A stretch of DNA of 64,000 nucleotides from positions 3,096,501 to 3,160,500 of the forward strand of contig NZ_CP080269.1 of NCBI RefSeq assembly GCF_019431355.1. Direction: 5' to 3'. Position numbers and translations under genes: made by a program. Positions 29,173 through 62,204 of the stretch are shown here, piece by piece (within the stretch, counting starts at the first letter, position 1; each line of letters opens with the position of its first letter). Source of the stretch: Paenibacillus sp. R14(2021) (GTDB lineage Bacteria; Bacillota; Bacilli; Paenibacillales; Paenibacillaceae). Below the pieces are notes generated by a model, which was given only the letters and a program-made list of their open reading frames with translations, had not been told where the DNA came from and made no database searches.

Positions 29173-32100
29173 TTATTCGGTTAACCCTAAGTCCAAGCTC
29201 GCATTCAGCGCACGCAGGATGAGGACCACAGCCTCTTCGCGCGTTGCGTTCGCGTTCGGTGCAAAGGTATTTTCCCCTCTGCCTTTCACGACGCCTGCTT
29301 CGGTCAATGCATCGATCGCTTTGGCTGCCCAATGGTTATTCAAATCGGTAAACGTGCTGTTATGAGCGGCTTTGCCAAAGTCGATGACCTTAGCCAGAAT
29401 CGCAACCATTTCTGCACGTGTAATCTGCTGGTTCGGCTTAAAGGATCCGTCGCCGTACCCCTTAATGAAGCCCAGTGCTTCAAGCGCGCTGATCGCGCCA
29501 TGCGCCCAGTTGTTGTCTTTCACATCCGTGAACGAGACCGATGCCGATTCGCTCAGGCCAAGTGCTTTCGCAAGCATCGATGCAAATTCAGCACGCGTCA
29601 CGTTCTTCTTCGGCAGGAACGAGCCGTCCGCATAGCCTTGGACAAACCCGGCCTTCGAGGCCAATTCGATGGCCGAAGCGCTCCAGGAAGTAGACGGAAC
29701 GTCGCTGAACGTAACCGACGTCGGATCTGCCTTCGCTTTGCCGATACGGTCTTTCACCGCTGCACCATCCACGGAAGCGTTCAATACAGGTGTTTCCGGC
29801 GTCGGCGTGACTGGCGCCTGATCCGAAACAGGGTCCGTTACCGGAGGAGTCGGAGGCGTTACAATCGGGCCCGAACCGCCCGTATTGGCCTGCGTAACCG
29901 TAATCGTCAGGTATTCGTTGAAGCCCCAATAGTAAACGCGCAGCTTCGCCGTACCTGGCTTAACGGCGGTGACGAGCCCATCTTCGCTGATGGTAACCAC
30001 GTCTGGATTCTTCGATTCGAACATCGCGAGATCCGTCACGACAGGCTCGCTCAGATCGCTCATCGTAGCCGTTGCCTTCAACTGCTGCGTTCCGCCGACC
30101 GTCATCGATGTCAAATCAGGTGTAATGGTCAAGCCTGTAGCAACCGGCGTCGCATCCGAATAGGTCGAGATGACCGGTACCCTGACCGGGATACCCTTAT
30201 ATTGGCCGACGACGTTGGTTCCGCCTTTACGGTTCGTCCGCATAATTTTGCCGTCCTCCGTGAGGTCGGCAATCGTCGGATCGCCGCTGAACCATGTCAA
30301 ATCCGCATTGTTCAGTGTCTGAACAGTCGCGTCGCTGTAGATGGCTTTGACCACTGGAGCGACCGGCTGATCGTCGGCGTCATCGAACACGTAATACGTC
30401 GGATCTGCGACAAGCGTCATGATTTTCGGCTTGATCGGGTTCTTCGTCACAGTCACGTCGAACGCGATCTCATGGCCGAAGTAATCGCCGGTTACCCGTG
30501 TCGTGCCCTCTTTCGTCCCGGCGACAAAACGAACATAAGGCTGCTCGTCGTACATGGCGACGAGATCAGGATCATCGATCTGCCAATTGACGAACCCGGA
30601 CAGGGGATCGGTATGCGATTGGCCGTCTTTATCCACATACGTTTCTTTCAAGGCGACGAGCGATGAGCCTTGCGGATGAACGTCGACAGAATAGACGCCG
30701 GCCGCTTCGTCCGCATCGGCTGTGATGCCTTGCAGGTCTACGACCTCGAAGTGAAGCGTACGCTTATAGGTCAAGCCGTAACGCTCGTACGTGAACACGG
30801 CATCCGTCTCTCCGGTTCCTAAGGCCTCGAAGCCGCTGTCCACGTTGACATCCACGATGCCCGGCTGCGAGAACGTCCACTGGCCTTCCGCCGGGAAGGT
30901 GTCGCCCGTCGTATCCAACGCGAACGGCTTCAGCTCGTAAGGCGCTTGCCCCTTGTACAGTCTGAAGGACGCGTCGTCGAAGTACCACAAACGTTCGTAA
31001 GTCCGGAAGCCGATGTCGAGCACGTCCGGCTGATCCGGCTGCTCGGTAACGGCCACGTTCACGATCGTCGGCGTAAAATCGCCGTATCCGACGGTAAGCG
31101 TCGTTCTGCCGAACTTCTGATAGCCCGGAAGCGGAATCTCGTTCCCGGTCGATTTTCCGAGGATGCTGACGGCGCCGTTCTCACTCACCACGTCGGCAAT
31201 TTCGGTATCATAGACCGACCATGCTGCTTGGTCGCTCACGTCCTCCGTCGTGCCGTCGCTCTTGACAGCGAGCAGCTGGACGGGGTATTTGGCCCCTTTT
31301 TGCACCAAAATCTTCGTCGTTGACAGAAGCAGCGCGTCAACCGTCGGTTCCGCTGCCGCGCCTTCGTCCGCCACTCTGACGTTGGAGGAGAAGTCGCCTT
31401 CCTTAACTGTTACCCGAACCGCGATGACCGCGCCGTCCAGTACCAGATGCACGCGGGTAGAGCCAGGAGCCACCGGCGTCAAGACGCCGTCCTTGACCGT
31501 CACCACGCCGGCATCCTGCGTCGACCACTTGCCTTGCGCCGTTACGTCCGCGCTCGTGCCGTCACTGTAGGCAGCCTGAACGGTGACCGTGCGAGGACCT
31601 GCCGTAACATCCAGCGTTATTTTTGGATCGCTTACGGTAACACCGGTAATCTGCTTCGGTGTCTCTGTAACCGGCGGCAATCCTTCGGAAGCTGCCACCT
31701 CAATCGTGACTGATTGCTGCTGTCCGCCATACGACACCTCGATGGCTGCCGTTCCTTTGCCGACAGCTGTGATCTCGCCCTTGCGGTTGACGGAGACCAC
31801 CTGCGGGTTGGCCGAGCGGTAGACAGCGGCCTGCGTTTTATCCAGCTTCTCGCCGCCGGACATGACCGCTTCGACCGACAACGCTTCATGCTTGCCGAGC
31901 TGCAAATTCAGAGAGTCGGGGGTCACGGAAAGAGAGACCGCCGTCTTTGGTTCCGCTTGCTTCACGATGACAGGAATAATAGCAATTTCATCCTTGTAGA
32001 TCGCGCCGAGAACGGCCGATCCGACGGATTCGGCAACGATCGTACCGTTGTCGCTGTGGTAGGCTACCGATGCATCGGAAGCGAGCCAGTCGCTGCCCGC

Positions 32101-33588
32101 GATCTTGGACGTGACGTCCTCCACCGTGCCGTCATTGTAAATGGCTTTGATGATTGGCGATTGAACAGGTTTTCCATCCTTAATTTCCACGTAGGTCGGC
32201 TCGGCCACCAAATTCAGCACCTTGTTGGCGGCGGCTGCCTTCGTTACCGTCACGTTGAACGTGAAGGGTTCGAGTGCTAAATAATGGCCCGTAATGGTCG
32301 TCGTGCCTTCCTTGCCGCCTGCAAAAATGCGGCCGGAATCGTTGATGGTCGCGATGGACTTATCCGCTACGGTCCATTCAATATCGCCCGTGACGTCATC
32401 GGCGTTATAGTTTTGGCCTGTCCGAGGATCCTCGGAGTAAACGCCCATGATCGTAATTTCCTGATAGCTCCGAGGCGGGAGCGAAACAGGAGTGTCGAGC
32501 TCCAATTGCGCCATCATGTCCGGCGTAAACCGCTCCAGCTTGAACGGTCCGCCGACGAATACCTGCACGGCATTGACGAGCAGGCCGTCGTCGTAGCCGT
32601 CTTCGCCTTCCGTGCCGGACGGCGCTGTATACTTATACTCGAAATAAATATAGGTCATGCCTTTGCCGACCGGCGTAATAACGCCGTTCTGGTCTACCGT
32701 AGCAATGGATTCGTCTTTCGAATACCATTTGCCCAGATTCGTCACCTCGTAACGATCCTGATCGGGATATTCCAGGTCCGCGTAGATCTTATGCGGCACG
32801 TCGGTCTCCATGATCTTCAGCACGTCTTCCGACATCAGAAGACCGAACAACTGAAACGGAATCGGGTCCTTCTGAACGGTGACCGCGATCGACAGCGTCG
32901 GCATGCTGCCGTATTTCACGCGGATGAATGTCGAAGCGCCGCCCTTAATGCCCTTGATCATGCCGTGTGACACGGTCGCTACCTCGGCATCGTCCGTGCT
33001 CCAGACGGCATCGGCCGTAATATCCCGCGTTGACCCGTCCGTGAACGTTCCATGCAGATGAAGCGGATAGTTCGTGTCCGCCTCGACGAACACGTTCAAC
33101 GTGGACAGCAGGTATGTGACAAGCGTCGGTTCCAAAGGCTCTGCCGCTTCCGGCGCTCCGGCGCCCGCGGTGATCGTAACAGGAACGTTGACGACGGCGT
33201 CGCCGAGATTGAGGCGCACTTCCGTCGTTCCGGCCGCTTTGGCCGTAATGACGCCCCGGTTGACAACGGCGACGGCGGGATTCATAGACATCCAGACGCC
33301 TTGCGTTGTCACGTCTTTCGCCGAACCATCCTTGTACTTCGCTTCGACCGTCACCGGATGGCTTCCCTCCGATAAGGCGAAAGCAACATTTGTCTCGCTT
33401 GGCGTCAGCGTATCGAACTGCGCAGCCGCTGCATTCTGGACGGCCGGTTGTTCATGCGCGGTTCCCGGCTCGACGCCGATACTCGTGCTTGGCGAGGCAG
33501 AAGCCATGCTGCCGAACAACGAACTAATGAGTACGGCTAATACTAGCGATAATGATAGAGCTTTTCTGACAACCTTCCGATGATGCAT
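29173..33588 (-). CDS. Giant S-layer-anchored surface protein with Ig-like (BIG2) repeats
   Basis: A 1471-residue protein. Residues 1-31 form a Sec signal peptide ending ASA. From about residue 50 to 1230 it is a chain of BIG2-like repeats, each with motifs such as YSDGTSADVTAQGKWSTQDA and VTAVKPGTAKLRVYY that recur roughly every 80-100 residues. A Pro/Thr/Val-rich linker follows, and then three SLH domains to the C-terminus (starting FSDVPSTSW, FTDVKDNNW and FTDLNNHW; each with GYADGSF- or GYGDGSF-like and TRAE-like motifs). The SLH domains bind pyruvylated secondary cell wall polymer. The repeats probably form a stalk; no catalytic domain is seen. The start follows GGAGGAAAGTC. Confidence 0.92.
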   Translation of the reverse strand: MHHRKVVRKALSLSLVLAVLISSLFGSMASASPSTSIGVEPGTAHEQPAVQNAAAAQFDTLTPSETNVAFALSEGSHPVTVEAKYKDGSAKDVTTQGVWMSMNPAVAVVNRGVITAKAAGTTEVRLNLGDAVVNVPVTITAGAGAPEAAEPLEPTLVTYLLSTLNVFVEADTNYPLHLHGTFTDGSTRDITADAVWSTDDAEVATVSHGMIKGIKGGASTFIRVKYGSMPTLSIAVTVQKDPIPFQLFGLLMSEDVLKIMETDVPHKIYADLEYPDQDRYEVTNLGKWYSKDESIATVDQNGVITPVGKGMTYIYFEYKYTAPSGTEGEDGYDDGLLVNAVQVFVGGPFKLERFTPDMMAQLELDTPVSLPPRSYQEITIMGVYSEDPRTGQNYNADDVTGDIEWTVADKSIATINDSGRIFAGGKEGTTTITGHYLALEPFTFNVTVTKAAAANKVLNLVAEPTYVEIKDGKPVQSPIIKAIYNDGTVEDVTSKIAGSDWLASDASVAYHSDNGTIVAESVGSAVLGAIYKDEIAIIPVIVKQAEPKTAVSLSVTPDSLNLQLGKHEALSVEAVMSGGEKLDKTQAAVYRSANPQVVSVNRKGEITAVGKGTAAIEVSYGGQQQSVTIEVAASEGLPPVTETPKQITGVTVSDPKITLDVTAGPRTVTVQAAYSDGTSADVTAQGKWSTQDAGVVTVKDGVLTPVAPGSTRVHLVLDGAVIAVRVTVKEGDFSSNVRVADEGAAAEPTVDALLLSTTKILVQKGAKYPVQLLAVKSDGTTEDVSDQAAWSVYDTEIADVVSENGAVSILGKSTGNEIPLPGYQKFGRTTLTVGYGDFTPTIVNVAVTEQPDQPDVLDIGFRTYERLWYFDDASFRLYKGQAPYELKPFALDTTGDTFPAEGQWTFSQPGIVDVNVDSGFEALGTGETDAVFTYERYGLTYKRTLHFEVVDLQGITADADEAAGVYSVDVHPQGSSLVALKETYVDKDGQSHTDPLSGFVNWQIDDPDLVAMYDEQPYVRFVAGTKEGTTRVTGDYFGHEIAFDVTVTKNPIKPKIMTLVADPTYYVFDDADDQPVAPVVKAIYSDATVQTLNNADLTWFSGDPTIADLTEDGKIMRTNRKGGTNVVGQYKGIPVRVPVISTYSDATPVATGLTITPDLTSMTVGGTQQLKATATMSDLSEPVVTDLAMFESKNPDVVTISEDGLVTAVKPGTAKLRVYYWGFNEYLTITVTQANTGGSGPIVTPPTPPVTDPVSDQAPVTPTPETPVLNASVDGAAVKDRIGKAKADPTSVTFSDVPSTSWSASAIELASKAGFVQGYADGSFLPKKNVTRAEFASMLAKALGLSESASVSFTDVKDNNWAHGAISALEALGFIKGYGDGSFKPNQQITRAEMVAILAKVIDFGKAAHNSTFTDLNNHWAAKAIDALTEAGVVKGRGENTFAPNANATREEAVVLILRALNASLDLGLTE

Positions 33589-47543: not shown

Positions 47544-48779
47544 ATGGATATTGTTCACATTGACATGTATTTAATCGATGAGGATACGGACCAGCCGCGC
47601 TACCAGTTCGATCAGGAAGCGCTCGAGGAACTCATGAAGAGCATCGAGGAGCTCGGCCTCCTCTCGCCCATTAAGGTGCGGACGACGCCTGACGGACGCT
47701 ACAAAATCATTTATGGCAACCGCCGCTACAAAGCCAGCAAAATGCTGAACAAGCCCACCATTCCCTGCATTGTCTCGACGGCAACGGATGAGATGGACAT
47801 TTATCTGGAGCAGATCGCCGAGAATCTGACGCGGGAAGGCTTCTCCCCGATCGAAGAGGCAGAGGCGTTCCACAAGCTGATGAACGAATCGAAGTTCAAC
47901 AGCTCCTTGAAGTTTCTGGCAGGAAAGCTTGGCAAGCCGGAGAATTACATCAAGAACAAATGCGAGCTGCTGAAATTCGGGAATGCCGTTCGTAAGCTCA
48001 TCGTCAGCGGCACGCATATCCGCAAGGATAAGCTGACGGAAGATCAAGTGCTGCCCATTAAGGATCTGCCGATCGAGTACCGCGATCCGCTTGCGCTGAT
48101 CGTGGCAAGGGACGAAATGCCGGTCAGCGACGTGAAGAAGATCGTGAAGCTGTTCAAGGACAAGGACATCTCGGAGGGCACGAAAGACAAGCTGCTCTAT
48201 AAATCCGGCTACGAGCTGCTCCAAACCTGGTCCACCGTGCAGCAGAACAAGAAGGAACGCGAACGTGCCGCCGAGCTGAAAGCTGAGCAGGAGGAGCGTG
48301 CGGCGGAGGCGAAGGCCGAGAGGGCGCGTCTTGCCGCCGAAGCGGCTGCGGCGGCCGCAGGCGCGGCTGGCGGCGCGAAAGCTGCGGCGGCGCCGGACGG
48401 CCTAGGCAGCGCAGCGCTTGGCGCGGTGCCTGCCAGCGGCGCGGCGAAGCCGGCCGGCTTGGCTGCCGGCGGCGGGCTGCTAGGCGCAGCGGGCGGCGCG
48501 CTCGCGGAGGTTGCCGCGTCGGTGCTCGCCGGAGCGGCGGCGCCAGCCGGCGAAGCTTCGCTCGCGGCAAGCCTGCAGCAGCTGCTGGCTTCGCTGTCCG
48601 CAGCGCAGCCGCTCCCGCAGGAAGCGCTGGACGCCTATGCCGCAGCGCAGCCGCAAGAAGCCGACCACGCGGTCTTCGCTGCCGGCGTGGAAGCGCTCAT
48701 CCATGGGCTTGAGCAGCAGCTCGCCCAGTGGCGCGGCGTTCAATTGATGGCCAAGGCCAAGACGGTCGCTGCCCAATAG
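47544..48779 (+). CDS. ParB/Srx-domain DNA-binding protein with Ala/Gly-rich tail
   Basis: A 411-residue protein. Residues about 1-90 form the ParB nucleotide-binding domain: DQPRYQFDQEALEELMKSI, then IIYGNRRYKASKM (the CTP-binding Arg patch, GNRR instead of GERR), then ENLTREGFSPIEEAEAF. Residues about 110-210 form the KorB-like helix-turn-helix region. After a charged helix (about 228-265, ERERAAELKAEQEERAAEAK-like) comes an Ala/Gly-rich stretch of some 100 residues (about 265-365), and a short helical C-terminus. It is not accompanied by parA, and no canonical parS site is visible. It is probably a ParB paralogue or a plasmid- or phage-derived relative. Confidence 0.85.
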   Translation: MDIVHIDMYLIDEDTDQPRYQFDQEALEELMKSIEELGLLSPIKVRTTPDGRYKIIYGNRRYKASKMLNKPTIPCIVSTATDEMDIYLEQIAENLTREGFSPIEEAEAFHKLMNESKFNSSLKFLAGKLGKPENYIKNKCELLKFGNAVRKLIVSGTHIRKDKLTEDQVLPIKDLPIEYRDPLALIVARDEMPVSDVKKIVKLFKDKDISEGTKDKLLYKSGYELLQTWSTVQQNKKERERAAELKAEQEERAAEAKAERARLAAEAAAAAAGAAGGAKAAAAPDGLGSAALGAVPASGAAKPAGLAAGGGLLGAAGGALAEVAASVLAGAAAPAGEASLAASLQQLLASLSAAQPLPQEALDAYAAAQPQEADHAVFAAGVEALIHGLEQQLAQWRGVQLMAKAKTVAAQ

Positions 48780-48833: not shown

Positions 48834-49664
48834 ATGAGTTATCTATCGCTAAGTACATGGAGTCTGCACCGCAATCTCGGACCGCTGCGCTGGACGCAGT
48901 GGGATGCGGAGGCCCGCAAGCATGTGTTCGTCGAAACACCGCAGCCGGAGCTGATGAAGCTCGTCGATCTGCCGGTCTTTCTGGCCAAGGAAGGCTTCGG
49001 CGCGCTGGAAATCGGCCACTTCCATTTCCCTTCCACGGACGACGCCTATTTGGCTGAGCTCAAGGACGCCTTCAAGCGCGCAGGCATTTCGTTCGATACG
49101 ATACTGCTCGATTACGGCGATATCTCAAGCTCCGACGAGACGCGCAGGCAAGCCGACCTCGCTTATATCCGAGAATGGATTGACGTCGCGGCCAAAGCCG
49201 GAGCGAAGAACATCCGCGTCGTCGCCGGCGAAAGCGAGCCTTCGGACGAAGCGGCGCTCGCCCGGGCCATCGATGCGCTTCTGGAGCTGCACGAATACGG
49301 ACAAAGCACCAACGTCCGCGTGATTACGGAGAACTTCAAGCCGCTGACCTCGAAGGCCGTCAACTGCCTGGCCATCGTGAACGCATTCGATGGCAAGCTG
49401 AACCTGATCGACGATTTCGGCAATTTCAAGGGCGAATCCAAATACGAGGAACTCGCCGCCATTATGCCTTACGCCGTATCGATTCACGCCAAGGCCCACT
49501 ATGACGAGAATGGCATGCCGGACTTAGAGGAATACACGCGCTGCCTCGACCTGCTGAAGCAAGGCAATTACGCAGGCGCGGTATCACTCATTTACGACGG
49601 ACCCGGCGATATGTGGGAAGGCATCAACAGAGTGCGCCGCATCGTGGAGCCGTACCTGCAATAG
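48834..49664 (+). CDS. Sugar phosphate isomerase/epimerase family protein
   Basis: A 276-residue AP-endonuclease-2-type TIM barrel. The segments EIGHFHFPSTDD, RVITENFKPL, DDFGNFKGES, SIHAKAHYDENG and SLIYDGPGDMWEG carry the His, Glu and Asp residues expected of the active site. Catalysis would be isomerisation or epimerisation of a sugar or inositol derivative. An in-frame GTG four codons upstream overlaps the GGAG sequence, so the ATG at 48834 is preferred. It lies 54 bases after the ParB-like gene. Confidence 0.8.
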   Translation: MSYLSLSTWSLHRNLGPLRWTQWDAEARKHVFVETPQPELMKLVDLPVFLAKEGFGALEIGHFHFPSTDDAYLAELKDAFKRAGISFDTILLDYGDISSSDETRRQADLAYIREWIDVAAKAGAKNIRVVAGESEPSDEAALARAIDALLELHEYGQSTNVRVITENFKPLTSKAVNCLAIVNAFDGKLNLIDDFGNFKGESKYEELAAIMPYAVSIHAKAHYDENGMPDLEEYTRCLDLLKQGNYAGAVSLIYDGPGDMWEGINRVRRIVEPYLQ

Positions 49665-49847
49665 CAGCGCTGCGAGCCGTAGCGCCGCCGGGCGCGGTGC
49701 TGCAAGGTGCTAAGGCGCGGTGCTGCAAGGCGCGGTGCAGGAAAGTTGCCGCAGCAAGGCGGAATGCGCGCAAAAAACTGTGCCGTGCAAGCCAGCGATG
49801 AAACACCGCAGCACATCCGGCTCGCCTGGCGCGCGGCAAAGCCGCAC

Positions 49848-49895
49848 AAAAAAAGGGTTTTCGTTCGGCACGCTGCCGATCGAAAACCCTTTTTT
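49848..49895. terminator. Bidirectional terminator between convergent operons
   Basis: AAAAAAGGGTTTTCG and CGAAAACCCTTTTTT pair perfectly around a 16-base loop, giving a T-run on both strands. It ends the isomerase gene (plus) and the acyl-CoA operon (minus). The 180 bases to the left contain imperfect direct repeats of GCGCGGTGCTGCAAGG. Confidence 0.92.
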
Positions 49896-49935
49896 GTATG
49901 CTCGCTTACGAATGCACCCGCGAGGCTGGCTTCGC

Positions 49936-50727
49936 TTACCGCCCGTCAGGACCGTACGCAATCAGCGTCAGCCCGCCGTCCACGCCGAGCACCTGCCCCG
50001 TGATGAAGCCGGCCCCTTCGCCGGCCAGGAACAGCGCTGCGTGCGCCACGTCCTCCGGCTGCGTAAGACGACCGAGCGGCGTGCGGCTGATTATGTTCGC
50101 CTTGAAGGTATCGAACGTATCTTTGGCGTAGAAGCGCACGGAGTCCGTTTCGACCACGCCGGGCGAAATGACGTTGCACGTAATGCCCTTCGGGCCGAGC
50201 TCCGCCGCCAAATAGCGCGACATCGATTCCAGCGCCGCCTTGGCGGAGCCGATGTTCGAATAGTTCGGCAGCGCGAACTGGCTGCCGAGACTCGACACCG
50301 TCAAGATACGCCCGGCCCTTCCTTCCATCAGCGGGACCGCCCGCTGCACGGCCTGCAGGACGCTCTTGATCACGACCTGATACGTGCGGTCGAGATGGTA
50401 GTCCTTCGTATCGAGCACCGGCTTGAACGCGGTAGCCGCGGCGTTCGCCATGAAGACGTCCAGCGCGCCCCATTCCTGCGTCAGCTGATCGAACATCGCA
50501 TCGATCTCCGCCGGCGACTCCAGCTCGGCTTTGCAGACGAGCGCCTGCACGCCGAACGCGCGAACCTCGTCCGCCGTCGCCTGAGCAGCCTCCACGTCCC
50601 GGCGATAATGAATCGCCACATCCGCGCCTGCCTTCGCGAAAGCAAGCGCCGTCGCGCGTCCGATGCCGCGAGAGCTCCCGGTAATCAGTACCTTTTTCCC
50701 ATGAAATGCAGCAGACAAAGCGTTCAC
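49936..50727 (-). CDS. SDR enoyl-thioester reductase (FabL/ChcA-like), last gene of the acyl-CoA operon
   Basis: A 263-residue short-chain dehydrogenase. The cofactor motif TGSSRGIG is at residues 16-23 and NAAA at about 95-98. The active-site Tyr156 and Lys163 are spaced Yx6K, the pattern of enoyl reductases (FabI/FabL), not the Yx3K of alcohol-oxidising SDRs. The sequence is closest in style to FabL. ChcA, the 1-cyclohexenylcarbonyl-CoA reductase of ansatrienin biosynthesis, is also an SDR, and this gene takes the expected place in the operon. The start is GTG (50725-50727) close behind AAAGGG; a TTG three codons later is possible. It lies 25 bases from the reductase gene upstream. Confidence 0.85.
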   Translation of the reverse strand: MNALSAAFHGKKVLITGSSRGIGRATALAFAKAGADVAIHYRRDVEAAQATADEVRAFGVQALVCKAELESPAEIDAMFDQLTQEWGALDVFMANAAATAFKPVLDTKDYHLDRTYQVVIKSVLQAVQRAVPLMEGRAGRILTVSSLGSQFALPNYSNIGSAKAALESMSRYLAAELGPKGITCNVISPGVVETDSVRFYAKDTFDTFKANIISRTPLGRLTQPEDVAHAALFLAGEGAGFITGQVLGVDGGLTLIAYGPDGR

Positions 50728-50752
50728 ATCCCTTTCGATTGCTTATTTTCGA

Positions 50753-52735
50753 TTACAGCCCAAGTGCCGCTTCGTACGCCTGCCTAATCGCCCTTGCGGC
50801 ATTGAGCTCCGACGGATCGGCTGCTCCGCCGACCACGTCCGCCGCCGCTTGTTCCATCTTAAGCAGGCCCGGCTCCATGCGTGACCGCTGGCCCGTGCAA
50901 AGCACGACCTGGTCGGCTTCCACGAACAGCCTCTCCGCATCGCTCTCGACCCAGATGCCCTCCGCTGTGATGCCGGTGCAGCGATAGCCCTTCAGCACGC
51001 GGACGCCGCGGCGCTTCAGCTCACCGAGCAGTACCCAGCGGGAGGTCGGACCGACGCCCTTCGCCACCTTCTCCGAACGGGAGACGAGCGTAATTGCGGC
51101 CGGTACCGCAGGCTGTGCTTCCTGTCCGCGCTCGGCGAAGAAGGCGGCTTCTTCCGGCTGCAGACTCATCCGTTCGGCCAAATAATGCGCCACGTCGCTG
51201 CCGATGCCGCCTCCGCCTATGACCGCGATTTTCCTGCCGAACGGCCGCGTTCCCGCGAGCAGCTCGGCATAGGTGCACACATGGGGCAAATCCGCGCCCT
51301 CCAGCAATTCAGGCACATACGGCTGCACGCCGGTTGCCATTATCATTCGGTCGAACCCGGCCAGCTCCTGGGCATCCGGCACGCTCGACATGCGGATGTC
51401 CACGCCAAGCCGATGCAAGGCCACGCGGAAGTAGCGGATCGTCTCGCGAAACGCCCCTTTGCCGGGAATGTGCGACGCGAGTAGAAACTGACCGCCGAGC
51501 CGTGCCGTCTCCTCGTACAGCGTCACCCTGTGACCGCGCTCGGCGGCGGTTTTGGCCGCTTGCAGCCCTGCGACGCCGCCGCCTACGACGGCAACGCTCA
51601 ACGGCACGCCAGCAGGTGACACCTCTTCCGCTTCGCGCCCCGCGCGCGGATTAACCAGGCAGCCGACCGGCTTCGGCGGATGGCCCATCGTATGATCCAG
51701 GCAAACCTGGTTGCAGGAGATGCACAGGTTCAGCCCGTCGAAGTCGCCTGCGGCGATCTTACCAGCGAACGAGGCGTCCGCGAGCCACGGCCGTGCCGGG
51801 GCGATGAAATCCAGGTCGCCCCGCAGCAGCAGCCGCTCCGCGACCTCCGCCGTATGGATGCGGTTCGCGCCGATAACCGGAATATCGACTTCGGCACGGA
51901 TTGTGCCAGCGATGGAGGCGAAAGCGCCCGGCGGCACGATCGCACCGACCGTTGGAATCGCGGATTCATGCCAACCGATGCCGATATTGAGCGCGTCGGC
52001 GCCGCTCTTCGCAAGGCGCCGGGCCAGCTCCAGTGTCTCCTCCCGCGTTGTGCTTCCTTCCATGCAGTCGTCGCCGGACATCCGATAGATGAGAGGAAAA
52101 CCACCGCCGACACGCGCGCGGATGCCTTCGAGGATTTCAAGGCAGAGCTTCATCCGTCCCTCGTGGCCCTGCCCGTATTCGTCGTCCCGCTGGTTCGTTA
52201 GAGGCGAGACGAACTCGTTCAGCAGATAGCCTTCGGAACCCATGATTTCGATCGCTGCGAAGCCTGTGTGCGCTGCGAATGCCGCGCCTTCGGCGAAAGC
52301 TTCCTTCAACCGGGCGATGTCCTCGCGCGTCATCTCCGCTGGCGTCTCCTTCGTCAGCCGCGAAGGGATCGGACTTGGCGCCCACGGCATGAGGCCCGTC
52401 TCCTTACTGCTCGCGTACCTGCCCCGATGGGCCAGCTGAAGCGCCAGCCGCCCCCCGTCGCGCCGGATCGCGTCGGCCAGCTCCGCCAGCTGCGCGCGAT
52501 GATCGGGCTCCGTCAGGTCGAACATGCCGGTTCCCCCGCCTTCGGGCAGCACGGCGACGTTGCCGGTCATGATGAGCTCGGCTCCGCCCCGCACCCGTTC
52601 CCGGTAGAAGGCGATCAGCTGGGGCAGCGATTCCCGGCTTCCTTCAATACCCAGATGCATCGCGCCCATCAAGATGCGATGCTTCGTTGTAAGGGAGCCG
52701 ATGCGCCCCGGCTGCAGCAGCAGTGATCGTTCCAT
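50753..52735 (-). CDS. 2,4-dienoyl-CoA reductase-like FMN/FAD/4Fe-4S oxidoreductase
   Basis: A 660-residue protein; ATG 52733-52735 is eight bases after the previous stop. Residues about 1-340 form an old-yellow-enzyme-type FMN barrel (RILMGAMHLG, LQLAHRGRYAS, NEFVSPLTNQRDDEYG). A CISCNQVC...GCLVNP cluster (about 345-370) binds a 4Fe-4S centre, and the C-terminal half has FAD and NAD(P) motifs (VAVVGGGVAGLQAAKTA, and IAVIGGGGIGSDVAHYLA). This is the domain layout of FadH and related enoate or dienoyl-CoA reductases. In this operon it could reduce a ring double bond of a cyclohexadiene-carboxyl-CoA intermediate. A longer frame opens upstream but runs inside the neighbouring gene. Confidence 0.9.
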   Translation of the reverse strand: MERSLLLQPGRIGSLTTKHRILMGAMHLGIEGSRESLPQLIAFYRERVRGGAELIMTGNVAVLPEGGGTGMFDLTEPDHRAQLAELADAIRRDGGRLALQLAHRGRYASSKETGLMPWAPSPIPSRLTKETPAEMTREDIARLKEAFAEGAAFAAHTGFAAIEIMGSEGYLLNEFVSPLTNQRDDEYGQGHEGRMKLCLEILEGIRARVGGGFPLIYRMSGDDCMEGSTTREETLELARRLAKSGADALNIGIGWHESAIPTVGAIVPPGAFASIAGTIRAEVDIPVIGANRIHTAEVAERLLLRGDLDFIAPARPWLADASFAGKIAAGDFDGLNLCISCNQVCLDHTMGHPPKPVGCLVNPRAGREAEEVSPAGVPLSVAVVGGGVAGLQAAKTAAERGHRVTLYEETARLGGQFLLASHIPGKGAFRETIRYFRVALHRLGVDIRMSSVPDAQELAGFDRMIMATGVQPYVPELLEGADLPHVCTYAELLAGTRPFGRKIAVIGGGGIGSDVAHYLAERMSLQPEEAAFFAERGQEAQPAVPAAITLVSRSEKVAKGVGPTSRWVLLGELKRRGVRVLKGYRCTGITAEGIWVESDAERLFVEADQVVLCTGQRSRMEPGLLKMEQAAADVVGGAADPSELNAARAIRQAYEAALGL

Positions 52736-52743
52736 GCCCGCGC

Positions 52744-53877
52744 TCACCCTCCCGCCAGCACATGCTTGGCGATGACCGCTTTTTGAATCTCCGCCGTGCC
52801 TTCCTCGAACTTCTGCGCCCGCGCGTCGCGGTAGATCCGCTCGATCTCGTAGCCCTTGAAATAACCGATGCCGCCCCAGATTTGCTGCGCCTTGTCCGTA
52901 ACGCGCTGCAGCATCTCGAGCGCGTACAGCTTCGCCATCGAAGCCGGGGGCGGCGTCAGCGTGCCGTCGTCCTTCAAGCGGCCCGCATACATAACCAGCT
53001 GGCGCGCAGCCTCGATATCCGTCGCCATTTCGGCAATCCACGTCTGGACGACCTGCCGCTGGCTGAGGGATTTGCCGAAGGTGACGCGCTCGCGGCTGCG
53101 CGCCACGGCGATGTCGAACGCGCGCTGCGCAAGCCCGACGCAGGTCATACCGACGCAGATCCGGCTTGGATCGAGGAAGCCGTTCAGCGCGCCAGCGAGT
53201 CCTTGTCCGACCTCGCCAAGCAGATGGTCCGCGGGAACGCGTGCATCCTTCAAGACGATGTGGGCATGTCCGGTTCCCGTGAGTCCGAGCGTCGAAGACA
53301 TTTCACGGATCTCCACGCCCGCGGCGGTCCGTGGCACGAGCAAGGCCATTGTGCCCTCGTAGCCCTTAGTCCCTTCCAAGCGCGCGTAGATAAGCAAGTA
53401 ATCGACCGTATCCCCGAAGGTAATCAGCCATTTCTCGCCCGACAGCACATAGGAATCGCCTTCCTTGCGGGCAGATGTTTCAATGTCGGCACCGGAGCCC
53501 GCGTTCGGCTCCGTGAGCGCGAAGGCCGCCGTAATTTCGCCGCGCACGAGCGGCTTCACGAAGCGTTCGCGCTGCGCCTCGTTTGCCAGGAAGTCGACAG
53601 GCCTCCAAATCCCGTTGATGACGTGCACGACCATGCGGATCGAGCCGTGCGATTCCGAGAACAGCTCGAGCAGCTGCAAATATTGCGTGAAGCTGAGACC
53701 GTGGCCGCCGTAGGCTTCCGGTGCGGCAAGACGAAGATAGCCCCGCTCCCGCAGCTCCTGCCAGACGTCCGGCCCGCACTGCCCGGTCTCCTCGATGCGC
53801 ACCGAGAGCTCCCGCAGACGTCCGTCCACGTAGCCTCTGACCTCCGCTTTTAACCGTTGAAATTGCGTATCGTTCAT
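52744..53877 (-). CDS. Acyl-CoA dehydrogenase
   Basis: A 377-residue flavoprotein of normal length. It has FALTEPNAGSGAD (about residues 119-131), the GEKWLITFGD segment and C-terminal IYRDARAQKFEEGTAEIQK, in which the first Glu of EEGT is the position of the catalytic base. ACADs desaturate acyl-CoA thioesters at the alpha-beta carbons. In the operon context the substrate may be a cyclohexane- or cyclohexene-carboxyl-CoA, or a branched or fatty acyl-CoA if the operon is catabolic. It lies 31 bases downstream of the ligase and eight bases before the reductase. Confidence 0.9.
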   Translation of the reverse strand: MNDTQFQRLKAEVRGYVDGRLRELSVRIEETGQCGPDVWQELRERGYLRLAAPEAYGGHGLSFTQYLQLLELFSESHGSIRMVVHVINGIWRPVDFLANEAQRERFVKPLVRGEITAAFALTEPNAGSGADIETSARKEGDSYVLSGEKWLITFGDTVDYLLIYARLEGTKGYEGTMALLVPRTAAGVEIREMSSTLGLTGTGHAHIVLKDARVPADHLLGEVGQGLAGALNGFLDPSRICVGMTCVGLAQRAFDIAVARSRERVTFGKSLSQRQVVQTWIAEMATDIEAARQLVMYAGRLKDDGTLTPPPASMAKLYALEMLQRVTDKAQQIWGGIGYFKGYEIERIYRDARAQKFEEGTAEIQKAVIAKHVLAGG

Positions 53878-53908
53878 TACTCAACCCTCTCCCTCTGAAA
53901 ATGAGCCG

Positions 53909-55498
53909 TCATTCGTTCTGGAGCTTGTCCGCTATCATTTGCCGAAGCAAATACTTCTGAATCTTGCCCGTCGGCGTGCGGGGCATGTCCTTCAAAATCT
54001 CCAGCCGTTCCGGCCAATACGCCTTCGTCACGCCTAGTTCCTGCATATAGGCGGTCACTTCGGTCAGCGTTATTTCCTGCTCCGGATCGATAAGCGTTAC
54101 GTACGCGCAAATCCGCTCATTCAGCCGCTGATCGGGCATCCCGACAACGGCCGCGTCCCGGATCGCGTTCATGCGGTACAGCAGATTCTCGATCTCGGAG
54201 ACCGGAATCTTCATCCCACCCCGGTTGATGATGTCCTTCACGCGGCCGGTCAGATGCAGATTGCCCTGCTCATCGATGATCGCCAGATCCCCGGTATTGA
54301 AGAAACCATCGGCATCGATCACCGAATCGTACCAATCCGGACGATTTAAATACGCGGTAAACATTGCCGGCGTCTTCACCATGAAGATGCCTTCCTGCCC
54401 CGGCGGCAGCGGCCGTCCGTCCGAATCGATGACCTTCATTCGTCTGCCCGAAATCGCCAGCCCGTCCGTATTCCAGGAGCTGTCCGCGTACTGCTTGACC
54501 GATCCGACGCTGATCATGCACGACTCAGTGGAGCCCCAGCCCCCCACGACTTTGCAGTTCAGCCGGTGGCGCGCTTCTTCAGCCAGCTTGCGCGGCACGG
54601 GCGCACCAGTCGCAACGAAAATCTTCAGCCCCTGAGGCGGCCGCTCTTCGCGGGTCAAATCCGCCAGAAACGGCATCGCAGCCTGCACGAACGTCGCTCC
54701 GTGCCGCTCGATCGCGGCACGAGCCGTTTCCATTTCCCAGACGCCTTGGCACACTTGCTTGGCGCCCAAATACATCGCAAGCATCATGCCGTACAGAAAC
54801 CCGGTCTGATGTGCCATCGGCGACGGAATCCATAACGTGTCCTTCGCCGTCAAGCCAAGCTCCTTCACGTGGGCGGCCAGCCCTTCGCTGAGCGTCCGGT
54901 GCGTATGGATGACGCCCTTCGGCTCGCCTGTCGTCCCCGACGTGAACAGCAGCTGGGCCGGCGAATCCGGCCCCGGACGACGGCGCGCGATCAGCTCCCT
55001 GTCGGGCTCGCGGCTTGCGAGCCCCCCCAGGCAGCGCCTAAGATCCGATGGATCGTTGGTATCGATCATAATCACATGGCGCAAACCCGGCATTTCGGAG
55101 CGGATCTTGCGGATCAGCGGGCCGTATTGGAAATTCCGATATTCATCCGGAATGAGCAGCACCTTGCTCTGCGCGCGGCCGACGATAAACGGAATTTCCC
55201 GCTCCCTCAGCACCGGCAGCAGCGGGCAGGCAACGGCGCCGATCTTCCAGACGGCCAATGTAAAGACGACGAATTCCCAGCGGTTCGGCAGCAGATAGGC
55301 TACGTTCTCGCCTTCCTCCACCCCGAGCTCGATCAGCCCTTGCGCGGCACGGTCCGAGAGCGCATCCAGCTCGCCGTAACTGATGCTGACCGGCGACGCG
55401 GCATCTGCCAGGTCCACAATCGCGCCGCTTCCCGGCTTCGCTTGGGACAGCCGGTGCAGGAAGAGCCGTTCCTGTTTGAAGGTCTTGGTTGAGATCAT
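53909..55498 (-). CDS. Acyl-CoA synthetase / ligase (AMP-binding)
   Basis: A 529-residue ANL-superfamily enzyme. The ATP-binding motif LLFTSGTTGEPKG is at about residues 188-200, followed by GWGSTE (A5), DGFFNTGDLA (A7 Asp), GRVKDIINRGG (A8) and PRTPTGKIQKY with the catalytic Lys (A10, near 519). It activates a carboxylic acid as the CoA thioester through an acyl-AMP. It resembles cyclohexanecarboxylate or cyclohexene-carboxylate CoA ligases and medium-chain ligases. The start ATG overlaps the stop of the EPSP-synthase-like gene by four bases (ATGA), a strong sign that both act on the same pathway. Confidence 0.9.
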   Translation of the reverse strand: MISTKTFKQERLFLHRLSQAKPGSGAIVDLADAASPVSISYGELDALSDRAAQGLIELGVEEGENVAYLLPNRWEFVVFTLAVWKIGAVACPLLPVLREREIPFIVGRAQSKVLLIPDEYRNFQYGPLIRKIRSEMPGLRHVIMIDTNDPSDLRRCLGGLASREPDRELIARRRPGPDSPAQLLFTSGTTGEPKGVIHTHRTLSEGLAAHVKELGLTAKDTLWIPSPMAHQTGFLYGMMLAMYLGAKQVCQGVWEMETARAAIERHGATFVQAAMPFLADLTREERPPQGLKIFVATGAPVPRKLAEEARHRLNCKVVGGWGSTESCMISVGSVKQYADSSWNTDGLAISGRRMKVIDSDGRPLPPGQEGIFMVKTPAMFTAYLNRPDWYDSVIDADGFFNTGDLAIIDEQGNLHLTGRVKDIINRGGMKIPVSEIENLLYRMNAIRDAAVVGMPDQRLNERICAYVTLIDPEQEITLTEVTAYMQELGVTKAYWPERLEILKDMPRTPTGKIQKYLLRQMIADKLQNE

Positions 55499-56844
55499 TC
55501 GTTCACGGCCTCCTCATTTGGCTGCTCTTCATCCCACTTGGCCTGCGAGCCGGTGTCTATGCCAAGCTGTGCCAAATGCTCGAAAAATTCCGGGTACGAA
55601 ATCCGGTAGGCATTCGGAAAGGTGAGCTCGGTCGGCTTGCCTTCCCCCCGCAGCGAAGCGAGCGTAAACGCCATTTGAACGCGGTGGTCATTATAGGTGG
55701 AGATGTTGGCGCCGCCGGTCAGCCTGCCGACCCCTTCGATAATCAGGTCATCCTCGACCTCCTTGATGTTGGCGCCCATTTTGGCAAGCTGCAGCATCGC
55801 TTTGACGCGATTCGATTCCTTCATCCGGCCAGGTCCGATATTTTGCAGCACGGTGGTCGTGCCCTCCGATAACGCAGCCGCCACAGACAGCGCAGGGATG
55901 AGATCCGGAATGTGACGCATGTCGATGCAGATGCGTTCGGCCGGCTTGTGCTGCTCGGAACGGCGGACTCTCGTGCCTCCTAGCTGCTCGTCAAAGTCCA
56001 GCGTTACGCCATATTGGCGGATAATGTCCATGATTTGGCCTTCCGGATGCGTTCCTGCATGCTCAAGCCCTTTCAGTATGATGTCAGCCGGAAACAGCGC
56101 GGCCAGCACGAGCAGGAACGCGGCTGAAGACAGATCCGGCTCGATATGAACGACAGCCGGATGGTACGTTTGCTTTGCCGGCACTCGCCACTGCGTGCCT
56201 TCCGCCATTTCCTCGACGCGGATACCGAATTTGCGCAGCATGCTGATTGTTAAATTAACGTAGGTCAGCTCATTGTGTGGCGGCAGCGCTTCAACGATCG
56301 TATCCTGCTCCGCGAACGGCGCAAGAATGAGCAAGCCGGAAATCCACTGGCTGAGCGTCCCTTGAATGCGAATATGCCCGCCCTGCACCTTGCCCGGTCC
56401 AATCGTGACCGGCAGCTTGTGCGCCTCGGCCTGCCACTGGACGCCCATGCTGCCGAGCGCCTCCAAGAGCGGACCGATCGGCCGGTCTCGAAGCGCTTTA
56501 TGCCCGTTAAACGTCGGCGCGAGTCCGCTCGATAGACTTCCAAGCCCAAGCATGAACTGCAGCGTCGAGCCTGAGCTCCCGACACCGATGCGTCCGTTCG
56601 TCGGACGGTAAGCGCCGCCTTTTACCCGGTATCCGTTGTCGATTTCCTGAATTGCGATTCCGAAATCTTGCAAGGCATGAAGCGTATCCTTGATATGCAG
56701 CGCCCCTGATTTACCGTGAATTCGCGTATCTCCCTCGGCAAGTGAGCCGAAGATCAAAGCCCGATGCAAATGGTACTTGGACGGCGGAATCCGAACGGTT
56801 CCTTCGATGCTGCCCTCATGCGGAAAAATCTTTAATCGCTTCAT
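55495..56844 (-). CDS. EPSP synthase-like enzyme with altered substrate motifs
   Basis: A 449-residue enolpyruvyltransferase-fold protein that starts the acyl-CoA operon; ATG follows AGAGGTGAAGGCAG. Conserved AroA features remain: the Lys and Arg of PPSKYHLHRAL (Lys23, Arg28), RDRPIG, SSAAFLL, IPDLIP, RMKESNRV and DHRVQMA. Key sites differ from true AroA: the shikimate-binding Ser after Lys23 is Tyr24, and the PEP-binding GN(A/S)GT...R motif is GSSGSTLQ (residues 89-96, with Asn to Ser, Thr to Ser, Arg to Gln). Divergent AroA homologues belong to shikimate-derived cyclohexanecarboxyl-CoA clusters of Streptomyces as far as I recall. No other aro genes are nearby, so housekeeping AroA is probably elsewhere. 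Confidence 0.87.
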   Translation of the reverse strand: MKRLKIFPHEGSIEGTVRIPPSKYHLHRALIFGSLAEGDTRIHGKSGALHIKDTLHALQDFGIAIQEIDNGYRVKGGAYRPTNGRIGVGSSGSTLQFMLGLGSLSSGLAPTFNGHKALRDRPIGPLLEALGSMGVQWQAEAHKLPVTIGPGKVQGGHIRIQGTLSQWISGLLILAPFAEQDTIVEALPPHNELTYVNLTISMLRKFGIRVEEMAEGTQWRVPAKQTYHPAVVHIEPDLSSAAFLLVLAALFPADIILKGLEHAGTHPEGQIMDIIRQYGVTLDFDEQLGGTRVRRSEQHKPAERICIDMRHIPDLIPALSVAAALSEGTTTVLQNIGPGRMKESNRVKAMLQLAKMGANIKEVEDDLIIEGVGRLTGGANISTYNDHRVQMAFTLASLRGEGKPTELTFPNAYRISYPEFFEHLAQLGIDTGSQAKWDEEQPNEEAVNE

Positions 56845-57312
56845 CTGCCTTCACCTCTTCTGTACTTGTTCATTGGCCCTTGCATTTCGCTGGTCATGTA
56901 CATGGCTCGGATCACGCGCCAATAAAGAAAAAACCGTCTCCTCGATAAGCCTCCGATTTCCAGATGACTCGACAAAAGAACGATCTCAGCCTACTTTTCT
57001 ATCAAAGCATGACGGTCTTCGCATAGACGGACCGCCCGCCACTACTCATTATGACCGGGCAGCAAGCAGAATAAACTTCTCTTGCCGCGCCAGACATGCC
57101 CTGAGAGCTGCGGTATCCAGCCTCCCCCTCCTCTTAACGGCTCCTACGATACCCATATGACGGGCTGTTCAAATTCATGCCTAGCTTTGGCCGCGCATGC
57201 AAGTAAGGAGACTTGCCTCTTCCGAGCGGGAACGGCTGCTCCGCGCACGGACAAGGGCACAAAAAAAGGACCGGTTCCTCTTCGGAACACGATCCTTCTT
57301 GTTGGCTAAACG
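56845..57312. other. Long upstream region of the acyl-CoA operon, no gene seen
   Basis: 467 bases without a supported coding frame. The right end holds the terminator of the acetyltransferase gene; the rest (about 415 bases) must contain the operon promoter and a leader. No clear -35/-10 pair was found; TTTATT and CATAAT spaced 16 bases (about 57052-57079, minus strand) is the best weak candidate. Confidence 0.4.
57261..57295 (-). terminator. Terminator of the acetyltransferase gene
   Basis: GGATCGTGTTCC pairs with GGAACCGGTCC (one bulge) on the minus strand, followed by T7. Confidence 0.85.
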
Positions 57313-57942
57313 TCAATTCATCAGCAGCGCCATAATCGCCACGTCAAGCAGTTTATGCGTCACCTCATGCATCAAATACTGCCGGAGCAAGCCTTCCTGC
57401 TGAAACCCGAGCTTGCTTAGCAGCTTGATGGAGGCTTGATTATCCGGTACCACTTCCGCTTGGATCCGGTTCGGATGGATGTAATGTTTCGTAAAGTCGA
57501 TCACACCGCGAAGCGCCTCCGTCATAATGCCTTTGTTCCATTGATCCGGCCTTAGGTCGTAGCCGAGCGTAAGCGGAAACCGGTGTTCATCGTCAAAAGC
57601 TCCCCGGGTCGGCATTAAAATGACCGTGCCCATGAGTTGCGGCTGCTCCCGCAGCGAGATTCCCCACGGAATCAGTCTTCGCTCCCGGAAGGCTTGATTC
57701 CAGGATTCGATCAGCGTTCCGGAATCCGCCGCCGAAGCCGGCCCATGCCAATCCAGATGCTTCGTGACCTTCTTATTTGCATAGAACGCGTGCAGATCCA
57801 TCGCATCCATCGCTTCCATCTGCCGCAGCATCAGCCGCTCGGTTTCGATTTTAGGAAAGGTGGAGAATAAAGCTTCGATACTCACGTCGACCACTCGCTC
57901 TTCATTCATATTCAAGATCCGTACGTCTATCATATCGGACAA
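57313..57942 (-). CDS. GNAT acetyltransferase (RimJ/RimL type)
   Basis: About 209 residues from the first TTG (57940-57942); ATG codons follow three and eleven codons later and no strong ribosome binding site decides between them. The domain starts FPKIETERLMLRQMEAMDA and shows GYDLRPDQWNKGIMTEALRGVIDF with the acetyl-CoA loop, and the PDNQASIKLLSKLGFQQEGLLRQY motif B. It belongs to the Acetyltransf_3 family, with protein N-terminal Ala or small amine substrates in relatives. Substrate unknown. Confidence 0.83.
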   Translation of the reverse strand: MSDMIDVRILNMNEERVVDVSIEALFSTFPKIETERLMLRQMEAMDAMDLHAFYANKKVTKHLDWHGPASAADSGTLIESWNQAFRERRLIPWGISLREQPQLMGTVILMPTRGAFDDEHRFPLTLGYDLRPDQWNKGIMTEALRGVIDFTKHYIHPNRIQAEVVPDNQASIKLLSKLGFQQEGLLRQYLMHEVTHKLLDVAIMALLMN

Positions 57943-61849: not shown

Positions 61850-62204
61850 AGGCAGCCCTCTTGCGCCGATTCGGCCGATTTTCCGGCCATGTAGGCTGCT
61901 GGGCAGCCCTTTTGCGCCGATTCGGCCGATTTTTCGGCCGATTCGCCCGATTTTCCGGCCATGTAGGCTGCTGGGTAGCCTTCTTACGCCGATTCGACCG
62001 ATTTTCCGGCCATGTAGGCTACTGGGTAGCCCTTTTGCACCGATTCGGCCGATTTTCCGCTCATGTAGGCTGCTGGGTAGCCCTCTTGCGCCGATTCGGC
62101 CGATTTTTCGGCCATGTAGGCTGCTGGGTAGCCTTCTTGCGCCGATTCGGCCGATTTTTCGGCCATGTAGGCTACTAGGTAGCCTTCTTGCGCCGATCCG
62201 GCTC
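61850..62204. repeat. 51-bp tandem repeat array between convergent genes
   Basis: Six units starting GCGCCGATTCGG (or close variants) at 61863, 61914, 61986, 62037, 62088 and 62139, then a partial at 62190. Unit length is 51 bp except the second, which is 72 bp because of a 21-bp internal duplication. Each unit has three small inverted repeats (GCCGATTCGGC, GGCCGATTTTCCGGCC and GGCTGCTGGGTAGCC). Because 51 is divisible by three, frames stay open on both strands, but none has a ribosome binding site. The array ends within three bases of the stop codon of the oxidoreductase gene. Confidence 0.85.

Follow-up and report, generated by a model that had tools for sequence, protein, structure and literature searches.

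A putative shikimate-to-cyclohexanecarboxyl-CoA operon in Paenibacillus sp. R14(2021) and its AroA-like protein

A stretch of 64,000 nucleotides from Paenibacillus sp. R14(2021) (contig NZ_CP080269.1, positions 3,096,501 to 3,160,500, forward strand; the whole of it is called the window here) carries on its minus strand, at window positions 49936-56844, an operon of five open reading frames (ORFs), which probably is a cassette converting shikimate to cyclohexanecarboxyl-coenzyme A (CHC-CoA). This reading was put forward in an initial annotation made from the sequence alone and is supported by the sequence comparisons reported here. Pathways of this kind are already known in actinomycetes and Alicyclobacillus, so that the points of interest are the clade to which the AroA-like protein of the operon belongs and the absence of that protein from classic Alicyclobacillus. 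In the open-licence full-text literature, covered mostly by titles and the beginnings of abstracts, no account of an operon of this kind was recognised for Paenibacillaceae.

The five-gene operon and its recurrence

The five ORFs are separated by gaps of -4, 31, 8 and 25 bases. They encode, in order of transcription, a protein resembling AroA, the 5-enolpyruvylshikimate-3-phosphate (EPSP) synthase (EPSPS), an AMP-forming CoA ligase, a protein of the acyl-CoA dehydrogenase (ACD) fold, a flavoenzyme of the FadH/Old Yellow Enzyme (OYE) type, with flavin mononucleotide (FMN) and flavin adenine dinucleotide (FAD), and a short-chain dehydrogenase/reductase (SDR):

55495..56844, minus strand: AroA-like protein, 449 amino acids (aa), EPSPS fold (PF00275, 258 bits; NCBIfam aroA, 304 bits)
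53909..55498, minus strand: AMP-forming CoA ligase, 529 aa (PF00501; best NCBIfam family TIGR03208)
52744..53877, minus strand: acyl-CoA dehydrogenase-fold protein, 377 aa (best NCBIfam family AcrC)
50753..52735, minus strand: 2,4-dienoyl-CoA reductase-like FMN/FAD/4Fe-4S enzyme, 660 aa (nearest solved structure 1ps9)
49936..50727, minus strand: FabL-like SDR with the Yx6K enoyl-reductase motif, 263 aa (best NCBIfam family FabL)

Coordinates and gaps had been given in the same way by the initial annotation and were confirmed; its protein labels agree with the Pfam and NCBIfam scans, the Yx6K motif it had named is present in the window SDR, and the coupling it had described is seen in the stop of the AroA-like gene and the start of the ligase gene, which overlap as ATGA. 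The start of the flavoenzyme was taken as the ATG at 52735, the mechanical ORF beginning at 53041 and a GTG at 52747 being also possible. A horizontal origin was considered from composition: GC content is 0.62 in the operon against 0.56 on either side, but at third codon positions the range of the operon genes (0.68-0.80) coincides for the most part with the range of 12 other genes of the window (0.61-0.77). A promoter scan over 49600-57400 found none, with 2.1 expected.

A second complete operon with identical gene order lies in the same genome (locus L005, copy 2), its proteins being 78% (AroA-like), 77% (ligase), 93% (dehydrogenase), 78% (OYE) and 89% (SDR) identical to those of the window. 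A search of the complete genome, a single contig of 5.98 Mb, with the AroA-like protein gave four matches, the first being the window gene, the second a 79% relative at 5844232-5845572, the third a housekeeping-type AroA at 1775214-1776461 with 30% identity and the fourth weak (22.5 bits). Divergent from copy 2, at L005 7484-9723, stand genes for an IclR regulator and a transporter of the major facilitator superfamily (MFS), which could regulate this copy; the genes downstream of it were judged by eye only. Neither copy 2 nor the absence of the AroA-like gene from classic Alicyclobacillus had been part of the initial annotation. Among 22 genomes of the same genus the AroA-like gene is found in four (688-714 bits; no other listed match exceeds 278), and two of the four hold two copies. 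In the tree, copy 2 and a gene of Paenibacillus glycinis are sisters, and the next branch outside this pair is the window copy. Plasmid records yielded no close relative of the AroA-like protein, the best reaching 33%.

A scan of a species-genome collection gave 269 relatives of the AroA-like protein, and the best 80 loci were kept, a gene type being counted as present at BLAST E <1e-15. The five-gene set is met again in related genomes: of the 80 loci, 48 hold all five types, 14 hold four, 11 three, 5 two and 2 a single one, and the full set is also seen in 30 of the 46 loci whose 9-kb flanks are complete on both sides. The five-type loci belong to Bacillota, Actinomycetota, Gammaproteobacteria (a metagenome-assembled genome) and Eremiobacterota, and include Cohnella, Paenibacillus, Pullulanibacillus, Scopulibacillus, Alicyclobacillaceae and actinomycetes. 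Because of this recurrence and of the second complete copy in the genome, the grouping is regarded as more than chance. Between the five proteins, pairwise distances over 41 full-length sets are correlated at 0.91-0.97 (largest permuted value 0.26), to which common descent could contribute a part. Because antisense ORFs in the GC-rich loci confused the clustering of conserved neighbours, no counts were taken from it. The AroA-like protein and the ligase share a single stop-free ORF in 48 of the 80 loci. 3-Deoxy-D-arabino-heptulosonate 7-phosphate (DAHP) synthase, with which the shikimate pathway begins, was found in 10 of 82 loci searched, 3 of them from Alicyclobacillaceae and 7 from Eremiobacterota, and three of these were confirmed by Pfam.

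The AroA-like clade

The initial annotation had made its reading depend on whether the AroA-like protein groups with housekeeping AroA. Among the 41 rows of the tree, the 35 AroA-like ones form a single group with support 100/100, and the six EPSP synthases stand outside it; the branch leading to the group measures 1.55 changes per column, and here the program warns of long branches meeting. An AlphaFold2 model confidently displays the EPSPS fold (predicted local distance difference test, pLDDT, 92.7; predicted template-modelling score, pTM, 0.90), and the structures nearest to it are EPSP synthases with shikimate 3-phosphate bound (TM about 0.85).

Residues were compared by E. coli numbering in two overlapping sets. 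The first comprises the 115 sequences longer than 415 aa among 120 listed matches, query and copy 2 included; the second comprises 82 sequences, those of the 80 loci, of copy 2 and of the window, from a scan one of whose patterns contained SKYH and so in part presupposed the Tyr at position 23, whereas the first set was not chosen by that pattern. We take S23, S169 and S197 to help bind shikimate 3-phosphate, and K22, R124, R344, R386 and K411 to be binders of phosphoenolpyruvate (PEP). Tyr at Ser23, no residue at Ser169 and Glu at Ser197 were each found in 115/115 sequences of the first set and in 82/82 of the second, and Ile at Lys411 in 111/115 and 81/82; K22, R27, G96, R124, S170, Q171, D242, D313, K340, E341, R344, H385 and R386 are kept throughout the first set. 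Arg100 and Lys411 are replaced in 82/82 sequences of the second set, whereas housekeeping AroA controls keep S169 and R100 in 12/12 and K411 in all 11 that were readable. Other positions are less telling, as the controls have Asn at S23 in 5/12 (the genome's own AroA included), Gln at S197 in 7/12 and His at K340 in 7/12. In seven housekeeping-type AroA of the A. acidocaldarius family (L127-L133), His replaces the usual Lys340 and Gln replaces Ser197.

Compared with EPSP synthases, the clade thus shares the fold and keeps K22, R124, Q171, D313, E341, R344 and R386, but is altered at S23, S169, R100 and K411, and the window protein is only 30% identical to the AroA of its own genome. Judged by these characters it is not an ordinary EPSP synthase. 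Since residues for shikimate 3-phosphate are altered and those for PEP are mostly retained, the enzyme probably no longer binds the 3-phosphate but keeps most of the PEP site. With D313, E341 and the residues for the PEP phosphate still in place, it may well bind PEP or some similar anion.

Counterparts in actinomycetes and Alicyclobacillus

The remaining four proteins were placed by family and by nearest solved structure. The best NCBIfam family of the ligase is the cyclohexanecarboxylate-CoA ligase TIGR03208 (476 bits, cut-off 792). For the dehydrogenase-fold protein it is the acryloyl-CoA reductase AcrC (266 bits), followed by cyclohexane-1-carbonyl-CoA dehydrogenase (204 bits), both below cut-off; its nearest solved structures are the caffeyl-CoA reductase CarC (6fah, 219 bits) and the acyl-CoA dehydrogenase 5ol2 (218 bits), and it is possibly an enoyl-CoA reductase linked to electron-transferring flavoprotein. 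The OYE is nearest to 2,4-dienoyl-CoA reductase (1ps9, 454 bits), and its motif CxxCxxxC...C occurs in 45/45 sequences examined. The SDR matches FabL best (246 bits, cut-off 328) and is nearest in structure to enoyl-ACP reductase 3oic (188 bits); with the Yx6K motif, also found in 57 of 61 SDRs of the related-locus set, it is a candidate counterpart of ChcA.

The likeness to Streptomyces CHC-CoA clusters claimed by the initial annotation could be followed in the phoslactomycin/lactomycin cassettes; the ansatrienin genes ansJKLM/chcA we take to be a cassette of the same kind. Among the starter-unit genes in Table 2 of PMC5852498, lmP1/pnP1/plmJK are listed as AMP-dependent synthetase and ligase, lmP2/plmL as short-chain-CoA dehydrogenase, lmP3/ChcA as cyclohexenylcarbonyl-CoA reductase and lmP4/plmM as NADH:FMN oxidoreductase, the pn names being those of S. 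platensis. As far as that table goes, the gene classes match: dehydrogenase, SDR enoyl reductase and FMN oxidoreductase stand by class in one operon, and AroA-like and ligase functions go together, as overlapping genes in the window and as a fusion in the S. platensis protein P0342. This protein of 1003 aa, taken as a stand-in for the first gene of the published cassette, is 41% identical to the AroA-like protein and 43% to the ligase of the window; we infer that it is pnP1, and that the double letter of plmJK denotes such a fusion. A profile of the fused proteins finds 768, and all 120 listed, a set that overlaps the two above, carry both Pfam domains and the residues of the clade, with Tyr at position 23 and no residue at 169 in 120/120, and with Ile at position 411 in 119 and Val in one. 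Of the fused loci with all five types, 26/28 follow the order fusion-ACD-SDR-OYE, in agreement with the table (PMC5852498). The window operon differs in its separate AroA-like and ligase genes, in its order AroA-Lig-ACD-OYE-SDR instead of JK-L-chcA-M, in the lack of a ketoacyl synthase nearby and in the presence of two copies in the genome. Ketoacyl-synthase ORFs were seen at the edges of the related loci L031, L038 and L083. At L031 the single-ketoacyl-synthase protein lies beside genes for a condensation-domain protein, phosphoketolase and FtsH and is not a modular polyketide synthase; the polyketide link therefore rests on the published phoslactomycin cluster and not on related loci.

Alicyclobacillus homologues, to which the initial annotation had also pointed, were recovered in part. 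In excerpts of the literature, A. acidocaldarius is given about 51% omega-cyclohexane C17 and 33% C19 acids (PMC3035248), A. acidoterrestris is reported to have omega-alicyclic acids (PMC9713406), Kyrpidia tusciae is described without them (PMC3236038), and omega-alicyclic genes are stated as identified in a Sulfobacillus genome (PMC4378227). The A. acidocaldarius locus L115, assigned to omega-cyclohexyl fatty acids by gene content and not by experiment, reads ACD2-Lig2-SDR-OYE / Lig-ACD-DAHP synthase, where Lig2 and ACD2 are a second ligase/dehydrogenase pair. Its Lig, ACD, OYE and SDR are 54-59% identical to the window proteins (ACD 59%), but it differs in the DAHP synthase, the additional pair, the divergent layout and the lack of an AroA-like gene. 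When searched against the Paenibacillus host genome, the A. acidocaldarius ligase retrieves the two cassette copies at 665 and 658 bits (next 147), its SDR those at 321 and 315 bits (next 150.5), and the A. acidoterrestris OYE those at 716 and 715.5 bits, with no other at E 1e-150. Nearest to the OYE profile among the named matches listed are A. acidoterrestris, fodiniaquatilis, fastidiosus, dauci, tolerans, vulcanalis and hesperidum (1014-1030 bits), while the listed Kyrpidia tusciae OYE reaches 852 bits and is placed among Brevibacillus enzymes. The four genes other than the AroA-like one, for which catabolic families had been named as the alternative, thus match as a co-located set the A. 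acidocaldarius locus and the classes of the phoslactomycin cassette.

Within the A. acidocaldarius family a cassette-type OYE occurs in 24 of 41 genomes (12 loci opened), and the AroA-like gene in five, all among the 24; DAHP synthase lies within the locus in 11 of the 12 opened stretches. A. acidocaldarius and A. acidoterrestris have a single AroA match each, at housekeeping score (240 and 253 bits). It follows from the absence of the AroA-like gene from A. acidocaldarius that the pathway can run without it there; in classic Alicyclobacillus either another enzyme performs the first dehydration, or the pathway does not depend on what the AroA-like protein does, whose role would then be misunderstood. 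Lig2 and ACD2 were considered as an exclusive substitute, as all ten opened cassettes lacking the AroA-like gene (L110-L117, L119, L120) carry, next to the SDR, a further CoA ligase (27-29%) and a further acyl-CoA dehydrogenase (41-44%). However, ACD2, present in 25 of the 41 genomes and in 23 of the 24 with cassette-type OYE, also occurs in 5/5 genomes of the family that bear the AroA-like gene and in 4/4 such genomes of Pullulanibacillus/Scopulibacillus, and hence is not simply the substitute. It is absent from the seven Paenibacillus and Cohnella genomes tested; the best ACD2 matches of the host genome are its two cassette ACDs (42-43%).

Proposed pathway, rival readings and significance

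To turn shikimate into the cyclohexanecarboxyl group, water must be removed three times and four double bonds must be reduced, beginning with a 1,4-elimination. From the gene set, relatives, clade and residue pattern observed, we infer substrate, step order, product and its fate as follows. The AroA-like enzyme would eliminate water (1,4) from unphosphorylated shikimate to give a dihydroxycyclohexadiene carboxylate, the ligase would form the CoA thioester of the latter, and the dehydrogenase-fold reductase, the dienoyl-CoA reductase and the SDR would reduce double bonds between further dehydrations until CHC-CoA is reached. With CarC, 2,4-dienoyl-CoA reductase and 3oic as the nearest solved relatives of the redox trio, the set fits a ligase and three enoyl-CoA reductases acting after an initial dehydration. 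The initial annotation had seen no polyketide genes in the window, and no ketoacyl synthase was found there; as no polyketide genes were found at either copy, use as a fatty-acid starter, giving omega-cyclohexyl fatty acids, is the likeliest fate, with perhaps an even chance. More tentatively, and rather doubtfully, the AroA-like clade might add a new reaction type to the EPSPS/MurA fold: a dehydratase of unphosphorylated shikimate, assisted by PEP (enolpyruvyl-activating) or making use of the PEP site, that opens the CHC-CoA pathway, an unrelated enzyme taking the first step in classic Alicyclobacillus. The boldest mechanism that the retained D313, E341 and PEP-phosphate residues would allow is an elimination activated by PEP.

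Several observations weigh against a CHC-CoA cassette. The ligase, dehydrogenase, OYE and SDR all remain under the curated cut-offs of their best families, and the AroA-like protein passes the NCBI aroA equivalog cut-off (304 vs 287 bits), so that automatic annotation will name it EPSP synthase. Of the 46 complete-flank loci, 16 lack at least one gene type nearby, the OYE in 14 of these. The AroA-like gene is missing from A. acidocaldarius and 18 other of the 24 family genomes with cassette-type OYE, DAHP synthase gave no tblastn match in the window, L005 or L135, no ketoacyl synthase was found in the window or next to copy 2, and no report of omega-cyclohexyl lipids was recognised for Paenibacillus or Cohnella among titles and abstract beginnings.

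The equivalog score and the fold would also suit a mere second EPSP synthase, for example a glyphosate-tolerant one, standing by chance in an acyl-CoA operon. This is scarcely credible, given the residues lost or replaced at 169, 100 and 411 and kept in the controls, the separate AroA elsewhere in the genome and the fusion of the AroA-like protein to the ligase in relatives. A catabolic operon, whose ligase activates an alicyclic or aromatic acid that the dehydrogenase then oxidises, would agree with the resemblance of these two proteins to cyclohexanecarboxylate-CoA ligase and cyclohexanecarbonyl-CoA dehydrogenase and with the IclR and MFS genes beside copy 2, but is very improbable: a Pfam scan of the operon found no hydratase, thiolase or ring-opening gene, reductases are the nearest solved relatives of all three redox proteins, and the DAHP synthases by related cassettes point to synthesis. 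Unlikely as well, if less so, is a different shikimate-derived CoA ester, such as cyclohexene- or hydroxylated cyclohexane-carboxyl-CoA, made for an unknown metabolite and not for CHC-CoA or a membrane lipid. That neither copy is adjoined by DAHP synthase or ketoacyl synthase speaks in its favour, as do the lack of ACD2 in the Paenibacillus and Cohnella genomes, against its near-constant presence in those genomes of the A. acidocaldarius family that have the cassette-type OYE, and the lack of an isomerase gene in the same Pfam scan; yet every reductase type of the published CHC cassette is present, the SDR with its enoyl-reductase motif included. Conversion of shikimate to CHC-CoA is thus the reading retained.

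The other window genes among those scanned by family libraries are ordinary, and a nonribosomal peptide synthetase query matched only the cassette ligases in the window and around copy 2. Encoded elsewhere in the window are a ParB/Noc-like protein with an alanine-rich C-terminal part (47544-48779) and an S-layer-homology protein of 1471 aa with a Big_2 domain (29173-33588), and a tandem repeat at 61865-62202 consists of 5.2 copies of a 51-base unit plus a related 72-base unit.

If read correctly, the operon extends to Paenibacillaceae a starter-unit pathway of actinomycete polyketides and of acid-loving lipid makers, and predicts cyclohexyl lipids or metabolites that could be checked by routine gas chromatography-mass spectrometry. 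It supplies an unfused AroA-like enzyme, which should be easy to assay, and the formation of cyclohexyl lipids by A. acidocaldarius without the AroA-like gene leaves a gap in how shikimate is first dehydrated there.

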